64,000 nucleotides of DNA, taken from Azospirillaceae bacterium. Lineage in GTDB: Bacteria > Pseudomonadota > Alphaproteobacteria > Azospirillales > Azospirillaceae. The translations under genes and the position numbers were made by a program. The stretch spans positions 1-64,000 of the forward strand of contig DASQNC010000025.1 of assembly GCA_035645145.1 (NCBI GenBank), written 5' to 3'. How positions within the stretch are numbered: the stretch's first letter is position 1; each line of letters begins with the position of its first letter. Positions 2,643 to 12,126 of this stretch are shown piece after piece. The notes beneath the pieces were generated by a model, which saw only the letters and a list, made by a program, of their open reading frames with translations, was not told where the DNA came from and did not search any database.

Positions 2643-3989
2643 ATGTCCAACGTCTTCCATCGCAGCGTGCGCGCCCGCTATCCGACCGCGGTGGCCGGAG
2701 ATGGCTGCTACCTGATCGACCGGGAGGGGCGCCGCTATCTCGATGCGTCCGGCGGTGCGGCCGTGTCCTGCCTCGGGCATTCCGAACGGCGGGTGCAGCA
2801 GGCGATCGCGGCGCAGGCATCGACGCTCGCCTATGCGCACACGTCCTTTTTCACCAATGGGCCGATGGAGGCCCTGGCCGACCGTCTGGTGGCCGGGGCA
2901 CCGCCCGGCATCGAGCGGGTTTATTTCGTGTCCGGCGGCTCGGAAGGGATGGAGGCCGCGCTGAAGATGGCCCGCCAGTACTTCCTGGAAGCCGGGCAGC
3001 CGGATCGCCACAGGATCATCGCCCGGCGGCAGAGCTATCACGGAAACACACTGGGGGTGCTGGCGGCCGGGGGCAACGCCATGCGGCGCGCTCCGTTCCA
3101 GCCGCTGCTGGTCGAAATGGCGCACGTGTCCCCCTGTTATGCCTACCGTGACAAGTCCCCATCGGAAACCGAGGAGGCGTACGCGGTGCGGTTGGCGGAG
3201 GAGCTGGATGCCGCGATCCGGGCGTTGGGACCCGGGACGGTGGCGGCCTTCGTGGCCGAAACCGTGGTGGGGGCGACGTTGGGCGCCGTGCCGCCGGTGC
3301 CCGGATACTTCAAGCGCGTGCGCGAGGTGTGCGACCGGCACGGCGTGCTGTTGATCCTGGACGAGGTGATGTGCGGCATGGGACGCACCGGCACCCTGCA
3401 TGCCTGCGAGCAGGACGGGGTGGCGCCGGACATCATGGTGGTGGCCAAGGGCCTGGGCGCGGGTTACCAGCCGATCGGCGCGGTCCTCGTCTCCGGCCGG
3501 GTCTACAAGGCGTTCGAGGACGGCTCGGGGGTCTTCCAGCACGGCCACACCTATATCGGGCATCCGGTGGCTTGTGCGGCCGCACTGGCGGTCCAGGACA
3601 TCCTCCAGGTGGACGGGCTGCTGGCGAACGTCGTGCACCAGGGGCGCGCACTGCGGAGCGCGCTGGAGGACAGGTTCGGCAACCATTGCCACGTGGGCGA
3701 CATCCGCGGCCGCGGCCTCTTCCTGGGATTGGAGCTGGTGCGGGACCGCGGCGCCAAAACGCCGTTCGATCCCGCCTTGAGGGTCCACGCCAGGATCAAG
3801 CAGGCGGCCATGGAGCTCGGCCTGCTGTGCTACCCGATGGGCGGCACCGTCGACGGCACGCACGGGGACCACATTCTCCTGGCTCCCCCCTTCATCCTGA
3901 CGCCATCCCATGTGGACGAGGTTGTCGACAAGCTGGGCCGCGCCATCGATGCGGTCGTCGCCGCATTGCCGACGGGGAGGGTGGCATGA
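2643..3989 (+). CDS. Class III pyridoxal-phosphate aminotransferase
   Basis: A 448-residue fold-type I aminotransferase of class III, the omega/beta-amino acid type. The cofactor-binding aspartate is in LLILDEVMCGMGRTG (Asp240) and the Schiff-base lysine is in MVVAKGLGAGYQPIG (Lys269). SGGSEGMEAALKMAR near residue 97 matches the phosphate-binding region of the family, and HGHTYIGHP follows the lysine as in relatives. The start at 2643 has a GGGAGG just upstream. Its stop overlaps the start of the BKACE gene by four bases and the TRAP transporter genes follow, so it probably acts on an imported amino compound. The exact amino donor cannot be read from the sequence. Confidence 0.9.
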   Translation: MSNVFHRSVRARYPTAVAGDGCYLIDREGRRYLDASGGAAVSCLGHSERRVQQAIAAQASTLAYAHTSFFTNGPMEALADRLVAGAPPGIERVYFVSGGSEGMEAALKMARQYFLEAGQPDRHRIIARRQSYHGNTLGVLAAGGNAMRRAPFQPLLVEMAHVSPCYAYRDKSPSETEEAYAVRLAEELDAAIRALGPGTVAAFVAETVVGATLGAVPPVPGYFKRVREVCDRHGVLLILDEVMCGMGRTGTLHACEQDGVAPDIMVVAKGLGAGYQPIGAVLVSGRVYKAFEDGSGVFQHGHTYIGHPVACAAALAVQDILQVDGLLANVVHQGRALRSALEDRFGNHCHVGDIRGRGLFLGLELVRDRGAKTPFDPALRVHARIKQAAMELGLLCYPMGGTVDGTHGDHILLAPPFILTPSHVDEVVDKLGRAIDAVVAALPTGRVA

Positions 3990-4858
3990 CCGGTGGTCCG
4001 GATGTCCCCCTGCCGGTTGCTGTTTGCGCCGCCCCCAATGGTGCGCGCCGGACCAAGACGGATCATCCGGCCCTTCCCATGACGCCTGCGGAGATCGCGC
4101 GGGATGCCGCCGCTTGCCTGGAAGCCGGGGCGTCCATGCTGCACATCCACGCGCGCGGTCCGGATGGCCGGCACACGCTGGACCCCGGCCTCTACGGCGA
4201 GGTGATCGCCGCCGTGCGGGCCGAGGTCGGCGACCGCATGGTGGTGCAGGCCACGACCGAGGCCGCCGGGATCTACGCACCGGCCCAGCAGATGGCGGCG
4301 ATCCGGGGCCTGTGCGCCGGTGCCCGGCCCCGGTCGCGTCCCGACAGCGTGTCGCTCGCCATCCGCGAACTCCTTCCCGCGGGGGACGATTCGGCGGTGG
4401 CGGCGTTCGGCACATGGATCGAATGGGTACACCGCGAGCGCATCCTGCCCCAGTACATCCTCTACGATGCCGAGGACGTGGGGCGATTCCTGGCATTGCA
4501 GGCCCGCGGGGTCATTCCGGATGACCGGCCGAGCGTGTTGTTCGTCCTCGGGCGTTACACGGCCGGGCAGCAAAGCGACCCCCGGGACCTTCTGCCCTTC
4601 CTCGCGGCGATGGGGGCCGGACATGATTCGGCCGGGAACTGGTTCCTGTGCGCCTTCGGAAAGCTGGAATCCGCCTGCTGCCTGACGGCCGCGGCATTGG
4701 GTGGACACGCCCGGATCGGATTTGAAAACAATACCTTGATGGCGGACGGCAACCGTGCACCCAATAACGCCGCACTGGTTGATCAACTCGTGCGCGCGCT
4801 TCCGGCCGTCGGCCGTACCCCGGCCGATGCGGCCATGGTGCGCGCGTTGCTGGGCTGA
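3986..4858 (+). CDS. Beta-keto acid cleavage enzyme (BKACE, DUF849 family)
   Basis: A 290-residue TIM-barrel zinc enzyme of the BKACE family. Known members condense a beta-keto acid with acetyl-CoA and release acetoacetate and a new CoA ester. The N-terminal CAAPNGARRTKTDHP block, the metal-binding HIHARGPDGRHTLD block near residue 53, and the C-terminal RIGFENN block with the catalytic acidic residue are all present. Its ATG overlaps the aminotransferase stop (ATGA), so the two are translationally coupled. The pairing suggests that the aminotransferase supplies the keto acid. Substrate specificity varies widely in this family and is not assigned here. Confidence 0.88.
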   Translation: MTGGPDVPLPVAVCAAPNGARRTKTDHPALPMTPAEIARDAAACLEAGASMLHIHARGPDGRHTLDPGLYGEVIAAVRAEVGDRMVVQATTEAAGIYAPAQQMAAIRGLCAGARPRSRPDSVSLAIRELLPAGDDSAVAAFGTWIEWVHRERILPQYILYDAEDVGRFLALQARGVIPDDRPSVLFVLGRYTAGQQSDPRDLLPFLAAMGAGHDSAGNWFLCAFGKLESACCLTAAALGGHARIGFENNTLMADGNRAPNNAALVDQLVRALPAVGRTPADAAMVRALLG

Positions 4859-4891
4859 ACAAAACCAAGAAATTTTCAGGAGGAAATACGG

Positions 4892-5875
4892 ATGTCTTTC
4901 CGGATTGCAGGCGGCTTCGCAACCATGGCCGCGCTGGCCCTGGCACTGACGGCGGGAGCCCCACAGGCGCAGGCCCAGCAGAAGTTCGTGACCGTCGGGA
5001 CCGGCGGCGTGACCGGCGTCTACTACGCCGCGGGCGGTGCGATCTGCCGCTTGGTCAACGCCGGTCGTCGCACCCACAACATCCGCTGCTCGGTCGAATC
5101 GACCGGCGGCTCCGTGTTCAACATCAACACGCTGAAGGCGGGCGAGTTGGACTTCGGCGTGGTCCAGTCCGACACCCAGTTCCACGCGGTCCAGGGCACC
5201 GGCCCGTTCCAGGAGGGCGGGAAGTTCGGGGATCTGCGTTCGGTCTTCTCGCTGCACGCCGAACCGCTGACCCTGGTGGCCCGTCGCGAGGCGAACATCA
5301 AGAGCGTGGCCGATCTCGCGGGCAAGCGCGTCAACATCGGAAATCCGGGCTCGGGCACCGTGTCGACGGTCCGCGTGACCCTGGACGCGCTGGGCATCAA
5401 CACGTCCTCGTTCGCGCTGACCGGCGAGCTGCGCCCGGACGAGCACGGGCCGGCGCTCTGCGACAACCGCATCGACGCCTTCTTCTATGCGGTCGGCCAT
5501 CCGTCGGCGAACATCCAGGATCCGACCACCGCGTGCGGCGCCCAGCTGGTGTCGGTCTCCGGCGCCGGCATCGACAAGCTGGTGCAGCAGTTCCCCTACT
5601 ACTCCAAGGCGACCATCCCGGCGAACATGTACCAGGGCAATCCGAACCCGACCGAGACGTTCGGTGTTCGCGCCACCCTGGTGTCGTCGGCGCGGGTGCC
5701 GGACGATGTGGTCTACAACGTGGTCAAGGCCGTCGGGGATGGCTTCGACGAGTTCAAGCGCTTGCATCCGGCGCTTGAGACGCTGACCCTGGAAGCCATG
5801 GTCCAGAACAGCAACATCGCGCCCATGCATCCGGGCGCGGAGAAGTACTTCCGTGAGCGCGGCCTGCTGAAGTAA
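4892..5875 (+). CDS. TAXI-family TRAP transporter, periplasmic substrate-binding protein
   Basis: A 327-residue secreted binding protein. A signal peptide ends near residue 29 (AQAQQ), and the mature start carries the [16 protein letters not shown] block that defines the TAXI subgroup of TRAP binding proteins. SVESTGGS and NIGNPGSGT are further family blocks. A strong AGGAGG at 4878-4883 precedes the ATG by eight bases. It is followed by a stable hairpin and then the permease gene. Known relatives take up glutamate or other organic acids; the ligand here is unknown, and the two enzyme genes upstream are the best hint. Confidence 0.92.
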
Positions 5876-5920
5876 CAGAGGCTCTTCCGCAGGAGCGATG
5901 GACTGAAGTAAATGCGGCAG

Positions 5921-5945
5921 GCGCCCCGGGTTCGTCCCGGGGCGC
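5921..5945 (+). other. Perfect hairpin between binding-protein and permease genes
   Basis: GCGCCCCGGG (5921-5930) and CCCGGGGCGC (5936-5945) form a perfect 10-bp stem with a 5-base loop. No run of T follows, so it is not a standard intrinsic terminator. Such hairpins after a binding-protein gene usually stabilise the upstream mRNA or reduce readthrough, so that more binding protein than permease is made; that role is inferred here. Confidence 0.7.
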
Positions 5946-5978
5946 TTCGCGTTGCGAGCAATCGAGGAAACCCGACCC

Positions 5979-8570
5979 ATGACTGGACCGGCCCAGCAGA
6001 CGGTGGACGACGGCGCCGCGCGCGCCCAGCAGATGGTGGTCGAAGCCGACACCGGCGCCCGGTCCCCGATGGGCCTGACGGGCAGGGTGATGGCGGCGGT
6101 GGCCTTGATCTGGTCGCTGTTCCAGCTCTGGTACGCCTCGCCGCTCCCGTTCGCGGTCAACGCATTCGTCTTCAACGACACCGAGGCGCGCGCCATCCAC
6201 CTGGCGCTGGCCCTGTTCCTGGCTTTCACCGCCTATCCCGCGTTCGCCAAGGCGCCGCGCGGGTACGTGCCTTGGTACGATTGGATCCTGGCCATCGCCG
6301 GGCTGGTGTGCGCCGGCTACCTGTTCGTCTTCTACCGCGACCTGGCGGCGCGCTCGGGCATTCCAACGCAATTGGACCTGACCGTCGGCGCCATTGGCCT
6401 TGTCGTGCTGCTGGAGGCGACGCGGCGGGCCCTCGGGCCGCCGCTGATGGTCGTCGGCCTGGTGTTCCTGGCCTACACCTTCCTCGGCCCCTACATGCCC
6501 GAGGTGATCCAGCACCGCGGCTCCTCGATCGGCCGCATGGTCCAGCACCAGTGGATCACCACGGAAGGCGTGTTCGGCGTCGCCGTCGGCGTGTCCACCA
6601 GCTTCGTCTTCCTGTTCGTGCTGTTCGGCTCGCTTTTGGAGAAGGCGGGCGCCGGCAACTACATGATGCAGGTGTCGTTCGCGCTGCTGGGCCACCTGCG
6701 CGGCGGGCCGGCCAAGGTGGCCGTGGTGTCGTCGGCGCTGAACGGCGTCATCTCCGGCTCGTCCATCTCCAACGTCGTCTCGGGTGGCATCTTCACCATC
6801 CCGATGATGAAGCGCACGGGGCTGGGCGGCGTGAAGGCCGGTGCCATCGAGGCCAGCTCGTCCATCAACGGGCAGATCATGCCGCCCGTGATGGGGGCCG
6901 CGGCCTTCCTGATGGTGGAGTACGTGGGCATCCCGTACTCCGAGATTATCCGCCACGCCTTCCTGCCCGCCGCCATCAGCTACGTGGCGCTTCTTTACAT
7001 CGTGCATCTGGAGGCGCTGAAGCTGGGGATGAAGGCGATCCCCAAGGCGCCGCGGCCGGTGCGCGACACGCTGTTGGGGTGGGCCACGGGGCTGACCTCG
7101 ATCATCGTGCTGTCCGGTGTCATCTACTACGGCATCGGATGGACCCGCGACGTGTTCGGCCCGGCCGCCACCTGGATCATCCTGACGACCTGCGCCGTGG
7201 GCTATGTTGGCCTGATCTGGTACGCGGCGCGGTTCCCGGACCTGGAACTGGACGACCCCAACGCACCCGTCCTGAACCTGCCCGAGACATGGCCGACGGT
7301 GCGCACGGGCATCCATTATCTGATCCCCATCGTGGTGCTGCTGTGGTGCCTGATGGTGGAGATGTACTCGCCCGGCCTGTCCGCCTTCTACGCCACGCTC
7401 AGCATGATCGGCATCCTGCTCACCCAGCGCCCGCTGATCGCGCTGTTCCGCGGCCAGCCGATCGGGCCGGCCGCGGTGCAGGGGTGGCTTGATCTGATGG
7501 ACGGGCTGATCCTCGGCGCCCGCAACATGATCGGTGTCGCCGTGGCGACCGGCACCGCCGGCATCATCGTGGGCACCGTCACGCTCACCGGCCTCGGCTT
7601 CATGATGACCGAGTTCGTGGAGATGATTTCCGGCGGGAACGTGTTCCTGATGCTCGTCTTCACGGCGGTCATCAGCCTTGTGCTCGGCATGGGCGTCCCC
7701 ACCACCGCCAACTACATCATCATCGCCACCCTGATGGCGCCGGTGATCGTCGAACTGGGCGCCCAGGGGGGAATGATCATCCCGCTGATCGCGGTCCACC
7801 TGTTCGTCTTCTATTTCGGCATCATGGCGGACATCACCCCGCCGGTCGGCCTGGCCGCCTATGCCGCCGCCGCGATCAGCCGGGCGGATCCCATCCAGAC
7901 CGGCTTGCAGGGCGCGTTCTACAGCCTGCGCACGGCATTGTTGCCGTTCCTGTTCATCTACAATCCCCAGCTCCTGCTGGTCGACGTCCATGGCTGGTTC
8001 GAGGCCGCGCTGGTCATTACCGGTGCGTTGGTGGCCATGTGCGCGTTCTCGGCGGCCACCCTCGGGTTCCTCTACATCCGGACGAAGGTCTGGGAGATCG
8101 TGGTCCTGCTGCTGGCCTCGTTCATACTGATGAACCCTCTGTTCTTCATGGACCTGGCCTACCCGCGCTGGCAGGAACTGCCGGCGGGCCGCCTCGGCGA
8201 GGTCATGGGGGATGTGCCGGACAAGGGCCGCGTGGCCGTCCGGGTGGAAGGGCTGTCGATCGAGGGCGAGGACGTGAACCGAACCCTCAGCCTGCGCCTG
8301 GGCCCGCCGGCGCCGGTGGAAGAGCGGTTGCAGGCCGCCGGGCTGCGGGTCATGCGGTCGGGGGACCAGTACCGCATCGTCCAGGTCCAGCTTGGCAGCC
8401 AGGCGAACAAGCTGGGGCTGGAGCAGGGCTGGACCATCGGCAGCGTCCTGGTCCCGAACCCGGAACGACCGTCCGAGTACTGGCTCTACATCCCGGCGGC
8501 GGCGCTGCTGGGCATGGTCGTGCTGGCGCAGCTTTCGCGGCGGCGCCGGCTGAGCCCCGCCCTGGCCTGA
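5979..8570 (+). CDS. TRAP transporter permease, fused small and large subunits
   Basis: An 863-residue inner-membrane protein of the 4TM/12TM fused TRAP permease type that partners TAXI binding proteins. Hydrophobic helices run through most of residues 25-720, including the family blocks GSSISNVVSGG, ASSSINGQIMPPVMGAAAF and LGMGVPTTANYI, and ADITPPVGLAAYAAAAI near residue 620. The last 140 residues form a non-membrane region resembling the DUF3394 extension, then one more helix. The ATG at 5979 follows CGAGGAAA. Energy would come from a sodium or proton gradient. It closes the catabolic island. Confidence 0.93.
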   Translation: MTGPAQQTVDDGAARAQQMVVEADTGARSPMGLTGRVMAAVALIWSLFQLWYASPLPFAVNAFVFNDTEARAIHLALALFLAFTAYPAFAKAPRGYVPWYDWILAIAGLVCAGYLFVFYRDLAARSGIPTQLDLTVGAIGLVVLLEATRRALGPPLMVVGLVFLAYTFLGPYMPEVIQHRGSSIGRMVQHQWITTEGVFGVAVGVSTSFVFLFVLFGSLLEKAGAGNYMMQVSFALLGHLRGGPAKVAVVSSALNGVISGSSISNVVSGGIFTIPMMKRTGLGGVKAGAIEASSSINGQIMPPVMGAAAFLMVEYVGIPYSEIIRHAFLPAAISYVALLYIVHLEALKLGMKAIPKAPRPVRDTLLGWATGLTSIIVLSGVIYYGIGWTRDVFGPAATWIILTTCAVGYVGLIWYAARFPDLELDDPNAPVLNLPETWPTVRTGIHYLIPIVVLLWCLMVEMYSPGLSAFYATLSMIGILLTQRPLIALFRGQPIGPAAVQGWLDLMDGLILGARNMIGVAVATGTAGIIVGTVTLTGLGFMMTEFVEMISGGNVFLMLVFTAVISLVLGMGVPTTANYIIIATLMAPVIVELGAQGGMIIPLIAVHLFVFYFGIMADITPPVGLAAYAAAAISRADPIQTGLQGAFYSLRTALLPFLFIYNPQLLLVDVHGWFEAALVITGALVAMCAFSAATLGFLYIRTKVWEIVVLLLASFILMNPLFFMDLAYPRWQELPAGRLGEVMGDVPDKGRVAVRVEGLSIEGEDVNRTLSLRLGPPAPVEERLQAAGLRVMRSGDQYRIVQVQLGSQANKLGLEQGWTIGSVLVPNPERPSEYWLYIPAAALLGMVVLAQLSRRRRLSPALA

Positions 8571-8579
8571 CCCGTGGTG

Positions 8580-8615
8580 TCGAGATGCGCCGCCCGGCCG
8601 GTCAGCGCATCTCGA
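8580..8615. terminator. Hairpin between convergent genes
   Basis: TCGAGATGCGC (8580-8590) pairs perfectly with GCGCATCTCGA (8605-8615), an 11-bp stem with a 14-base loop. The stop codon of the leftward M23-like gene falls in the loop. The position, between the ends of two convergent genes, suggests a bidirectional terminator, although T runs are lacking. Confidence 0.55.
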
Positions 8616-9624
8616 TCCGTCGGGTGGTTTCCACCACTGTGGAGTTGCCACGGGTCAATGTGAACTCGGCCATCCATGCGCCGGGCATCCAGCCCTCGGC
8701 CGGACGGCGGCGGCCCGCGAACAGGAACCGGACGGCCTGGTTGCGCTCGATGGCGTCCTCGGAATCCGCGAACACCGCGCCATCGGGGCGGCGGATGCGC
8801 AGGCGCGTGCGGTCGCCGGCCTGGACGCCGAACAGATCCACCCAGAACACCAGCGCGCCGGCATCCGGGGCGAGGCGCAGGTCGGCATAGGCGCCGCGCC
8901 GCGCGGCTTGTGGGTCCGCCCGGTCGAATGCGAAGCCGGCGGTGAGGACGCCGGTCGGCCGGTAGGCGAGGGACGCCAGGGTGGACGGCTCCCAGAGGCT
9001 GCGGGACGTGTCGCCGCAGACCGCCGTTTCGACGGGACCCGCCCAGGGATCGACGATCTTCCCGTTGTGGCGGACCTGCATTTCCACATGGGGGAACTCG
9101 GTGCTGCCGCTCATCCCCACGAGCCCCAGCGGGGTCCCCGCCGCCACCGGCTGGCCGGGACGGACGCGAATGCTGCCGCGCTTCAGGTGGCTGTATTGGG
9201 TTTCCCATCCGCCGCCATGGTCGATGATCACCCCGTTGCCCGCCTCGCGGCCCGGCGCCAGGCCCGCCTTGCCGGTGTCGGGCTCGCCGTCACGGACGCG
9301 ATGCACCGTCCCGGCGGCGGCGGCCACGACCGCGACACCCCGTTCCATGGCTGCGAGGTCCGGCAACCGAAAGTCTGCGCCGCGGTCGCCATCGTAACCC
9401 AGGTGTCCGCATGCCCAATCCCGCACGCCGGGTCCCGGGTCGAGGTCCACGTTGTTCTGAACGAAGCAGGTCTCGCCGATCCGGCAATCCAGCGGCAGGC
9501 GGAGGCGCGGTCCATCGCGTGTCGGGTCCGTCGGACCGGCGGCCCGGGGCGCGGCAGGGGCAAGGATCGCCAAAACCGCGGCAAGGGTGACGACGGAAGC
9601 GGTGGGGCCTGTGCGCTGGCGCAT
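8602..9624 (-). CDS. Secreted M23-like (LytM) protein with altered zinc ligands, probably non-catalytic
   Basis: A 340-residue protein with a signal peptide (cleavage near residue 29, PRAAG) and a LytM/M23 fold. The blocks VIIDHGGGWETQYSHL, RVRPGQPVAAGTPLGLVGMSG and NGKIVDPW are typical of M23 endopeptidases, which cut peptidoglycan cross-bridges. The usual first ligand motif H-x-G-x-D reads DRGAD here, and the usual H-x-H reads PHVEM, so two zinc-binding histidines appear to be Asp and Glu. An HLGYD motif slightly upstream might partly compensate. A C-terminal beta-rich region of about 120 residues is of unknown role. The start has AAGGA upstream. Confidence 0.8.
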   Translation of the reverse strand: MRQRTGPTASVVTLAAVLAILAPAAPRAAGPTDPTRDGPRLRLPLDCRIGETCFVQNNVDLDPGPGVRDWACGHLGYDGDRGADFRLPDLAAMERGVAVVAAAAGTVHRVRDGEPDTGKAGLAPGREAGNGVIIDHGGGWETQYSHLKRGSIRVRPGQPVAAGTPLGLVGMSGSTEFPHVEMQVRHNGKIVDPWAGPVETAVCGDTSRSLWEPSTLASLAYRPTGVLTAGFAFDRADPQAARRGAYADLRLAPDAGALVFWVDLFGVQAGDRTRLRIRRPDGAVFADSEDAIERNQAVRFLFAGRRRPAEGWMPGAWMAEFTLTRGNSTVVETTRRIEMR

Positions 9625-9701
9625 TTCCCGGTCCTTAAAGGTGAGCGGAACCGATGGCTTGGTGGTTGGGATCCATGCCGCCACCGTCGTGGAGAGCGTC
9701 G

Positions 9702-10538
9702 ATGAGGCGTATGGTGCGAAATCTTGTCCGTTCCTTGGCGTTCTGCCTGGCTTTGGTTCCGGTTCCGGGAATTGGTCAACAACCGCCCCGCCAAGCCGCG
9801 GACTATGCCGCCCTGGTGGAGGAGGTGCGGCAGCGGCCCGGACCCGAACGCGCGTTCGCCGCGCGCGTCGAACGGGACATCCTGCGCCTGACCAACGAGG
9901 AACGGCGGCGGCATGGCTTGTCGGACCTCGCATGGGACGACATGCTCGCCGACACCGCACGCGCGCATGCGCGGGACATGCTGCGCCGGCGCTACTTCGC
10001 CCATGGGACGCCCGAGGGGCTGAGCCCGCACGACCGGATCACCGGGGCCAACCGGAGCCTCGTCCTGGCCTCCACGGCCGAAAACCTGTACGGCGCGGAG
10101 GGACCCTGGCGGGAGGCGGTCTCCGACCTCGCCGTCGAGGCGGTCCAGGGATGGATGGACAGCCCCGGCCACCGGGCGAACATCCTCAAGCCGGATCTCA
10201 GCCATCTCGGCGTCGGGATGGCGCTGGACGGTGATCGGGTGAACATCGCGCAGAACTTCGCGGACGTCGCCGGCCGACTGGCCGTTCCGGTGCCGGTGCG
10301 GGTGCGCCGGGGCGAACGGATCCGGATCGTCCCCGGGGACATGCGCGAGGCGGCGGGAAGCCGGCCGGTCGGCTTCTCGTTCGTGCGGGACGCTCCGGAT
10401 GCGGCGCTTGCACGGCCGAGCCCTTTCGGCACCGTCCCCGTCGAGGTCGGTCCGGGTGCCTTCCGGATCGCCATCTATGTCCCCGACGGTCGGCGCCGTT
10501 TCAAGGTGTTGGCCGGCCCCTACCTTCTCGTCCAATGA
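9702..10538 (+). CDS. Secreted CAP-domain protein
   Basis: A 278-residue protein with an N-terminal signal peptide and a CAP/SCP domain (cysteine-rich secretory protein, antigen 5, PR-1 type) at about residues 50-185. Family signatures are TNEERRRHGLSDLAWD, HARDMLRRRYFAHGTPEG, STAENLY and GWMDSPGHRANIL. The last 90 residues form a separate beta-rich tail. CAP proteins in bacteria are exported and their biochemical role is mostly unknown. The start at 9702 has GGAGAG upstream. It diverges from the M23-like gene, with 77 bases between the starts. Confidence 0.85.
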   Translation: MRRMVRNLVRSLAFCLALVPVPGIGQQPPRQAADYAALVEEVRQRPGPERAFAARVERDILRLTNEERRRHGLSDLAWDDMLADTARAHARDMLRRRYFAHGTPEGLSPHDRITGANRSLVLASTAENLYGAEGPWREAVSDLAVEAVQGWMDSPGHRANILKPDLSHLGVGMALDGDRVNIAQNFADVAGRLAVPVPVRVRRGERIRIVPGDMREAAGSRPVGFSFVRDAPDAALARPSPFGTVPVEVGPGAFRIAIYVPDGRRRFKVLAGPYLLVQ

Positions 10539-10635
10539 CCGGATGTCCGGCCGGGCTCGCTTTCGCCGGAGCAGGGTCTATATTCGGCGCATAAATTCGA
10601 GCGTCATGTCCCGGGCGCCATCCACGGAGGAAGCC

Positions 10636-12126
10636 ATGCAGCTCAACGTCGCCGGCGTCATCGCAAAGCTGGGTCTGAAGGATCCGGACCTGCTGCGGCA
10701 CCAGGCCTTCGTCGACGGCCGCTGGGTCGATGCCGACAACGGCCGGGTCATGCCGATTTCGAATCCGGCGAACGGGGATGCCCTCGGCACCGTGCCCGAG
10801 ATGGGGGTCGCGGAAACCCGGCGTGCGATCGAGGCGGCCCAGGCGGCGTGGCCGGCTTGGCGGGCGAAGACGGCCAAGGAGCGCGGGGCCATCCTGCGCA
10901 AATGGTACGATCTGATGATGGCCAACGCCGAGGACCTGGCCCGCATCATGACGGCCGAGCAGGGCAAGCCGCTGGCCGAAGCGCGGGGCGAGGTCGCCTA
11001 CGCCGCCGCGTTCATCGATTGGTTCGCCGAAGAGGGCAAGCGGCTGTACGGCGACACCATTCCCTCGCCCTGGGCCGACAAGCGGCTGGTGGTGGTGAAG
11101 CAGCCCGTGGGCGTGTGCGCCGCCATCACCCCCTGGAATTTCCCGCTCGCCATGATCACCCGCAAGGCCGGCCCGGCGCTGGCGGCGGGGTGCCCGATGG
11201 TGATCAAGCCGGCCCCCAGCACGCCTTTCTCGGCACTCGCCCTTTGCGTGCTGGCCGAACGGGCGGGTGTGCCGGCGGGCATCCTGTCGGTGGTCACCGG
11301 CGACGCCGAGGCCATCGGCGGCGAGATGACCGCCAATCCCATCGTGCGCAAGCTGACCTTCACCGGCTCGACGCGCGTGGGCAAACTGCTGATGGCCCAG
11401 TCGGCCGGGACCATGAAGAAGGTGTCCTTCGAACTGGGTGGCAACGCGCCGTTCATCGTGTTCGACGATGCCGACCTGGATGCGGCCGTGGCGAACGCGA
11501 TGGTCTCCAAGTACCGCAACGCCGGCCAGACCTGCGTGTGCGCGAACCGCATCTATGTGCAGGACGGCATCTACGACCGCTTCGCCGAGGCGTTCGCCGC
11601 GGCGGCCGCGAAGCTGCAGGTGGGCGACGGTTTCGCCGACAGGACCCAGGTCGGTCCCCTCATCACCGACGCCGCCGTCGCCAAGGTGGAGGACCATCTG
11701 GCGGACGCCGTTTCCAAGGGCGCCCGTGTGATGACCGGCGGCAAGCGGCATGCGCTGGGCGGGCGGTTCTTCGAGCCGACCGTCCTCTATGGTGTGACCC
11801 CCGCCATGAAGGTCGCCCGCGAGGAGACGTTCGGTCCGTTGGCCCCGCTGTTCCGCTTCAAGGACGAGGCGGACGTGATCCGCATGGCCAACGACACCGA
11901 GTACGGGCTGGCCGCCTACTTCTTCACCCGCGACATCGCCCGCGCCTGGCGCGTGGCCGAAGCGCTGGAGTACGGCATGGTCGGCATCAACGACGGCCTG
12001 ATGTCGACCGAGGTGGCGCCGTTCGGCGGGATCAAGGAAAGCGGTCTCGGCCGCGAAGGCTCCAAGTACGGGATCGACGAGTATGTCGAGATCAAGTATC
12101 TGGCCTTCGGCGGCGTGAGGGGCTGA
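10636..12126 (+). CDS. gabD: NAD(P)-dependent succinate-semialdehyde dehydrogenase
   Basis: A 496-residue aldehyde dehydrogenase closest to the GabD group, which oxidises succinate semialdehyde to succinate. The catalytic glutamate lies in SFELGGNAPFIVFDDAD (Glu266) and the nucleophilic cysteine in NAGQTCVCANR (Cys300). The cofactor region TPWNFPLAMITRKAGPALAAGC and the ending GIKESGLGREGSKYGIDEY are typical of the family. A GGAGG at 10626-10630 precedes the ATG. Other semialdehydes, such as glutarate semialdehyde, are possible substrates, and it could serve the transporter/aminotransferase island upstream. Confidence 0.85.
   Translation: MQLNVAGVIAKLGLKDPDLLRHQAFVDGRWVDADNGRVMPISNPANGDALGTVPEMGVAETRRAIEAAQAAWPAWRAKTAKERGAILRKWYDLMMANAEDLARIMTAEQGKPLAEARGEVAYAAAFIDWFAEEGKRLYGDTIPSPWADKRLVVVKQPVGVCAAITPWNFPLAMITRKAGPALAAGCPMVIKPAPSTPFSALALCVLAERAGVPAGILSVVTGDAEAIGGEMTANPIVRKLTFTGSTRVGKLLMAQSAGTMKKVSFELGGNAPFIVFDDADLDAAVANAMVSKYRNAGQTCVCANRIYVQDGIYDRFAEAFAAAAAKLQVGDGFADRTQVGPLITDAAVAKVEDHLADAVSKGARVMTGGKRHALGGRFFEPTVLYGVTPAMKVAREETFGPLAPLFRFKDEADVIRMANDTEYGLAAYFFTRDIARAWRVAEALEYGMVGINDGLMSTEVAPFGGIKESGLGREGSKYGIDEYVEIKYLAFGGVRG

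Follow-up and report, generated by a model that had tools for sequence, protein, structure and literature searches.

A conserved aminotransferase, BKACE-family and TAXI transporter gene cluster as a candidate route for uptake and breakdown of a glutamate-like beta-amino acid

Introduction

Canonical BKACE enzymes are zinc-dependent TIM-barrel proteins of family PF05853, and their standard reaction is the acetyl-CoA-dependent cleavage of a beta-keto acid. The present work concerns a four-gene cluster, at positions 2643-8570, in a 64,000-nucleotide stretch of DNA from an Azospirillaceae bacterium (assembly GCA_035645145.1, contig DASQNC010000025.1, positions 1 to 64,000; hereafter the window). 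The cluster encodes a class III pyridoxal phosphate (PLP) aminotransferase (AT), a PF05853 protein of a non-canonical clade, and the binding protein and permease of a TAXI-type TRAP transporter. It proves to be a real, conserved and apparently uncharacterised catabolic unit.

The closest described precedent is found in lysine fermentation, where Kce (2y7d-2y7g), a BKACE-family zinc TIM barrel, and Kat, a class III enzyme that transaminates a beta-amino compound, serve one pathway; transamination there comes after cleavage, unlike the order proposed here (PMC3149608). BKACE15 of Paracoccus denitrificans (8RIO, 8RIP, 9HNF) resembles the window protein in its fold, its zinc ligands and a conserved tyrosine, and uses E171 as its base, such that an E171L substitution abolished activity (PMC11961710). 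Another member of PF05853, the flavophos enzyme BsfD (9ZSC), likewise has an atypical active site and yields a different product (PMC12871164), and “non-active” BKACE groups are mentioned in a paper on the ASMC method (PMC12133276). With regard to transport, the VcGluP-VcGluQM TAXI system resembles this cluster in the residues of its binding site and in having a permease that is fused and carries DUF3394. In the open-licence literature, the family names of the operon were found in combination only in the flavophos and Kat papers.

Beta-glutamate (3-aminoglutarate), the compound to which the cluster is tentatively linked below, is an osmolyte of methanogens (PMC1224877). It is also, at 730 mM, the most abundant metabolite identified in Nitrosopumilus maritimus, a marine archaeon that serves as a model ammonia oxidiser, and two ocean profiles showed more of it in deep than in surface water (PMC8269262). 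A single KEGG reaction is reported for beta-glutamate (PMC12502400), and the 3-methylaspartate ammonia lyases, a candidate enzyme, are reported to be inactive on it (PMC7241714). No route for its breakdown appeared in the titles and abstract openings of the matches listed from the open-licence literature. If the link to beta-glutamate is true, the genes described here would provide a marker for a direct test of the fate of this compound in the sea.

A conserved gene cluster

The initial annotation, made from the DNA letters and their translations, described an aminotransferase, a BKACE and a TAXI transporter in one directional cluster with a 4-base overlap between the two enzyme genes, and this description is borne out by coordinates and family scores. 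The AT gene (2643..3989, forward strand) encodes a protein of 448 amino acids that matches PF00202 at 311 bits and the PRK07483/NF005685 family at 769 bits, well above the curated cut-off of 485 bits, while the next-best family model reaches at most 405 bits; its PLP lysine is, by motif, presumably K269. The PF05853 gene (3986..4858, forward strand; 290 amino acids, 227.6 bits against a cut-off of 24.8) begins with an ATG lying within the ATGA that forms the 4-base overlap with the AT stop codon. It is followed by the gene for a TAXI-type solute-binding protein of the glutamate, VcGluP-like type (4892..5875, forward strand; TIGR02122, 328 bits, cut-off 84), which is preceded by a Shine-Dalgarno-like AGGAGG and whose product has an N-terminus that, judged by eye, resembles a signal peptide. 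The last gene (5979..8570, forward strand) encodes a fused TRAP permease with a C-terminal DUF3394, or “claw”, domain (TIGR02123, 702 bits, cut-off 321). All four proteins thus score above their curated family cut-offs and are encoded in the same direction, and the transporter possesses both the binding protein and the fused permease of a TAXI-TRAP system. A second PF05853 gene of the genome, located on another contig, is a distant paralogue.

The association between these genes was assessed in an even draw of 241 alphaproteobacterial genomes, using matches to the BKACE clade at E<=1e-40, to the AT above its cut-off, and to the TAXI protein at E<=1e-75. The clade was found in 38 genomes and the AT in 70, and the two occurred together in 34 of the 38, where 11 would be expected (hypergeometric p of about 1e-17, uncorrected for phylogeny). 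In 31 of the 38 genomes the distance between the two genes is at most 1.5 kb, and in 24 they are on the same strand and no more than 100 bases apart; the 31 close pairs are spread over 24 family codes. Of the 31 pairs, 21 have a TAXI gene no more than 6 kb away, and reciprocally an AT gene lies within 6 kb of 32 of the 63 TAXI genes in the draw. A want of conservation had been named beforehand in the initial annotation as grounds for abandoning its proposal, and such grounds do not arise because the association is widely conserved.

A similar picture was obtained from individually compared loci, comprising the best 80 of at least 571 confirmed matches, and hence a non-random set, from which L115 was left out to give 79 named loci, together with 40 further loci (37 from the class draw and three from the window's family). 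Neighbouring genes at these loci are simple open reading frame picks made with no gene finder, such that some loci are misread; family models were run on one representative of each neighbour type, and the locus counts are tblastn matches to those representatives. An AT lies within 6.5 kb in 41 of the 79 named loci, and near these 41 there is a TAXI match in 22, a GltI-type binding protein in seven, a GlnH-type binding protein in three and an RpiR-type regulator in 28. No RpiR-type gene is present upstream of the AT in the window. Among the 71 loci holding both enzymes, 59 have the two genes on the same strand with the AT gene first. The AT-BKACE-TAXI unit is patchy within the window's own family, where, in 1.5-kb flanks, an AT beside the BKACE gene was found elsewhere only in G058, which also has the TAXI and permease genes, and in G008, which has the permease gene. 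A search for viral relatives gave 18 pattern matches, none of which was confirmed.

A BKACE-family clade with an altered active site

An AlphaFold2 model of the BKACE-family protein (pLDDT 90.3, pTM 0.90) finds its best structural match in Kce (2y7e; Z 33.1, rmsd 2.6 over 265 residues). By fold, the model is also close to cis-epoxysuccinate hydrolase (5zmu, 5zmy; Z 31.3, rmsd 2.2 over 256 residues), a relative compared here by fold and identity (26%) that takes a dicarboxylate substrate and, in a departure from canonical BKACEs, hydrolyses an epoxide without CoA. ObcA and Obc1 are further structural relatives, with Z scores of 25-26. Residues were compared in 119 clade members (71 AT-linked and 48 unlinked), a set that does not include the window protein itself; 115 of the sequences are distinct, as certain organisms are represented among both the named and the further loci. 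His53, His55, Glu247 and Arg243 are invariant in all 119; the first three are, by correspondence with Kce, presumably the zinc ligands. Tyr160 is kept in 116.

It is the catalytic residues that set the clade apart. The window protein has Ile158 at the position of the catalytic glutamate (E171 of BKACE15, E143 of Kce), and the residue there is isoleucine in 118 of the 119 members and leucine in the remaining one. The other glutamate of the pair corresponds to Q156 and is glutamine in 117, while the aspartate that follows the zinc-binding Glu247, on our reading a defining feature of canonical BKACEs, is asparagine (N248) in all 119. All three canonical residues are retained in the nine paralogues that were compared, and the catalytic glutamate also in Kce, 3no5 and BKACE15. 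Conversely, two new glutamates, Glu92 and Glu128, are invariant in all 119 members, at positions that are Gly/Ser and Ser/Thr, respectively, in the paralogues, Kce and 3no5. The alignment register was anchored on the tyrosine located two residues past Ile158 (Tyr173 of BKACE15, Tyr145 of Kce; PMC12871164). That tyrosine is stated by the same source to be present in all BKACEs, and the finding of phenylalanine at the Tyr160 position in eight of nine paralogues and in 3no5 runs counter to this (PMC12871164); the residue is therefore of little use as a mark of canonical enzymes and was set aside. BsfD departs from the standard active site in the opposite manner, with phenylalanine at the tyrosine position and the glutamate pair kept, whereas the window clade has largely kept the tyrosine and lost the pair. 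In a quick tree the clade splits from the paralogues with a support of 99, and long branches meet at that split.

To judge by its residues, then, the window protein is a PF05853 member that fails a canonical BKACE feature whose importance has been tested. Because the glutamate needed as base in BKACE15 is missing, acetyl-CoA-dependent cleavage is unproven for the clade, and in a widespread clade without the established base a PF05853 annotation alone should not be equated with that reaction. It is somewhat unlikely that the enzyme carries out the standard acetyl-CoA-dependent cleavage of some beta-keto acid, an alternative that concerns only the last step and so overlaps with the choices of substrate weighed below. 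The PF05853 match, the zinc ligands, Arg243, Tyr160 and the close fold match to Kce would all accord with such a canonical pathway, but the near-uniform loss of the catalytic glutamate, of its partner and of the aspartate argues against it, as does the inactivity of the E171L variant of BKACE15, which like the window protein lacks the required base (PMC11961710).

A glutamate-type transporter

The TAXI protein matches VcGluP (8S4J) at 378 bits and 9oz4, another solved TAXI protein, at 438 bits. In VcGluP, residues Y45, S75, Q93, H123 and E125 contact the ligand directly or via water, and the ligands are L-glutamate, L-glutamine and, weakly, D-glutamate and L-pyroglutamate; L-aspartate, 2-oxoglutarate, adipate and L-lysine caused no shift (PMC11574862). 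The window protein and all 54 AT-linked TAXI proteins have these same five residues. In its own numbering, the window protein agrees with the VcGluP site at Y44, S74, Q92, H122, E124 and G155, and differs from VcGluP at three of 13 compared positions, having G39 for S40, T156 for D157 and A200 for M201. The D157 position is the consistent difference from the VcGluP-VcGluQM system: it is Q, T, A or S in the 54 AT-linked proteins, and never aspartate in these or in 20 unlinked ones.

Where the TAXI gene is missing, other glutamate-type binding proteins can occupy its place. For example, in L050 (Ralstonia-type) the BKACE gene is followed by a GltI-type glutamate/aspartate binding protein (NF008063, 384 bits against a cut-off of 375), and in L112 (Mesorhizobium) by a GlnH-type binding protein (NF007029, 399 against 303), after which come ABC genes and the gene of a C45-family hydrolase. 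None of the seven GltI-type and three GlnH-type AT-linked named loci, which represent few lineages, has a TAXI match near. On these family assignments, the transporters of AT-BKACE loci are glutamate-type, and GltI- and GlnH-type proteins appear to replace TAXI elsewhere.

Two further arrangements were seen among the transporter genes. In L052, L053, L074, L084, L107, L167, L172 and L175, two or three TAXI matches stand ahead of a single permease, which suggests that one permease may be served by binding proteins for several ligands. In L149, a carboxyltransferase-type (CT_A_B) gene (9536-10567) lies near the AT, TAXI and permease genes; genes of this type occur in 5-oxoprolinases, and its presence may be a hint of further glutamate chemistry.

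Proposed pathway and alternatives

A glutamate-type transporter coupled with a class III transaminase that would act on a beta-amino acid points to the conversion of beta-glutamate to 3-oxoglutarate. It is thus our leading, though tentative, proposal, held with somewhat less than even confidence, that the operon serves the uptake and breakdown of a beta-amino dicarboxylate resembling glutamate, with beta-glutamate as the likeliest one. The precedent of Kat and the abundance of beta-glutamate speak in its favour. What is observed is the conserved gene association, the glutamate-type binding-site residues and the changes in the active site, from which the substrate, the products and the sequence of steps are deduced. 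The binding protein and fused permease would import beta-glutamate, the AT would transfer the amino group onto a keto acid, leaving 3-oxoglutarate, and the zinc-dependent BKACE-family enzyme would then split this product. If acetyl-CoA is still used, with a base relocated to E92 or E128, the predicted products are malonyl-CoA and acetoacetate; if the chemistry has changed, they could be either acetoacetate with CO2 or malonate with acetate. A conceivable fit to the substrate is offered by Arg21, which would suit the C5 carboxylate of 3-oxoglutarate. This residue aligns with Glu14 of Kce, which contacts the 5-amino group of the Kce substrate (PMC10470551), so that Kce has Glu14 and the catalytic glutamate where the window protein has Arg21 and Ile158. 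Arginine is found at this position in all 71 AT-linked members, in 32 of 48 unlinked members and in 103 of the 119 overall. The scheme retains the sequence of import, transamination to a beta-keto acid and action of a BKACE-family enzyme put forward in the initial annotation, which fits the conserved association, but drops the part suggested there for the downstream gabD gene as the oxidant of an aldehyde product. A bolder claim is that these genes are the first set for the breakdown of beta-glutamate by bacteria, with a BKACE-family enzyme whose base has shifted to E92 or E128 or which has acquired a new reaction on 3-oxoglutarate, for instance decarboxylation or CoA-free hydrolysis; this is rather unlikely to hold.

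Several observations weigh against the beta-glutamate proposal. Of the 70 genomes with an AT above its cut-off, 36 lack the BKACE clade, and in nine of 20 inspected AT loci the TAXI and permease genes are present with no adjacent BKACE gene (the 20 include G246, G230 and G133, whose genomes hold a clade member elsewhere). It should be considered that 3-oxoglutarate loses CO2 spontaneously, and therefore the last enzyme could be dispensable, which fits the proposal without proving it. The TAXI site residues are also found in 20 of 20 control proteins unlinked to an AT, where D157 is replaced by Q or T; as proof of beta-glutamate they were consequently rejected, and the site indicates a glutamate-like ligand rather than beta-glutamate specifically. 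Similarly, the arginine shared by two-thirds of the unlinked members makes Arg21 a trait of the clade and weakens it as a marker of AT linkage, and the new glutamates might pair with arginine residues, leaving none free for the substrate. Malonyl-CoA decarboxylase, a potential user of one predicted product, is present in the window's genome, in 28 of 38 BKACE genomes and in 88 of 241 overall, but its occurrence in 27 of 36 AT genomes without BKACE is an equal enrichment; it is therefore non-discriminating, and was rejected as support. Finally, several carriers come from genera, among them Ralstonia and Mesorhizobium, that are associated with soil or plants rather than with the sea.

Other substrates can be accommodated by the same genes. 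It is conceivable, though unlikely, that the same logic applies to a different amine resembling glutamate; beta-glutamine, an N-acylated form and a 3-amino dicarboxylate of greater length would be examples. The GlnH-type protein and C45-family hydrolase of L112 would agree with this, Arg21 would suit any anionic tail, and VcGluP accepts glutamine as well (PMC11574862); the GltI-type and VcGluP-type relatives nevertheless fit glutamate best. We know of no other beta-amino acid in nature that resembles glutamate and is comparably abundant. An alternative of similarly low probability is that the TAXI system is an ordinary importer of L-glutamate, used as nitrogen source or amino donor, while the AT and BKACE-family enzyme act on an internal compound. 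The sharing of site residues between AT-linked and unlinked TAXI proteins would be expected from this, and 19 of the 41 AT-linked named loci lack a TAXI match near; yet 10 of those 19 carry GltI- or GlnH-type binding proteins beside the enzyme pair, and the AT keeps its TAXI neighbour in the nine of 20 loci without an adjacent BKACE gene. The glutamate-type substitutes and the persistence of the AT-TAXI pairing without BKACE suggest that the AT acts on the compound that is imported.

Very improbable is a route in which the AT would convert aspartate to oxaloacetate for use by the BKACE-like enzyme as a beta-keto acid, in the manner of ObcA. The structural relationship to ObcA and Obc1 and the family name of the GltI-type proteins, which covers aspartate as well as glutamate, are compatible with it, but aspartate transaminases are usually of class I and the destruction of oxaloacetate with acetyl-CoA would make poor catabolic sense. 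VcGluP also gave no shift with L-aspartate (PMC11574862). There is still less chance that the AT is a gamma-aminobutyrate (GABA) transaminase, with gabD finishing the pathway and the BKACE gene incidental to it. Approximately 2 kb downstream, gabD does encode a succinate-semialdehyde dehydrogenase of the NADP type (NF008415, 840 bits, cut-off 828), but gabD-like genes occur in only four of the 71 loci with both AT and BKACE, and gabD is for that reason ruled out as a pathway gene and regarded as an unconserved neighbour. The wide gap between the AT's score to NF005685 and that to other models also speaks against a GABA transaminase, and the conserved link is that of AT with BKACE. Degradation of N6-acetyl-beta-lysine, a route from older Pseudomonas work, was likewise considered and is disfavoured by the glutamate-type transporters and by Arg21.

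Other features of the locus and of the clade

Between the binding-protein and permease genes of the window, folding indicates a G+C stem-loop with an 11-bp stem (5920..5946, forward strand), which may tune the ratio of binding protein to permease; the 103-base region has a z score of -1.59, and 15 of 200 shuffles fold equally well. Downstream, two genes separate the permease gene from gabD, one of M23 type on the minus strand and one of CAP/YkwD type, both weak model matches.

Members of the BKACE clade are also found in other settings. In 13 loci (L109, 4172-10810; L057, L059, L063, L064, L093-L096, L106, L108, L113 and L116) a subclade stands beside a 3HCDH-type (3-hydroxyacyl-CoA dehydrogenase) gene with no AT, accompanied by an IlvD-type dehydratase match in eight and a TctC-type binding-protein match in seven. 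Arg21 is replaced by tyrosine in 12 of these 13 members. The group requires only two label changes on the quick tree and therefore represents few independent events; a separate pathway appears to feed into this unusual clade of enzymes. In L060, L062, L075, L078, L080, L082, L100 and L105, mostly gammaproteobacterial, the clade member is found close to genes for nitrile hydratase, which were identified by family models in L060 and by a match to the L060 alpha subunit in the other seven. In L110 (Nitrospirillum, 6071-10822), grouped with L046, L203 and L204, a histidine kinase and a sigma-54 response regulator precede the clade member; L203 has a matching regulator and, further out, genes for an ABC permease and for a binding protein like SsuA. 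Finally, in L070, L091, L200 and L201 the clade member is adjoined by a 3-hydroxy-D-aspartate aldolase-like gene, which in L070, where the model was run, scores 467 bits and so falls below the threshold of 690.

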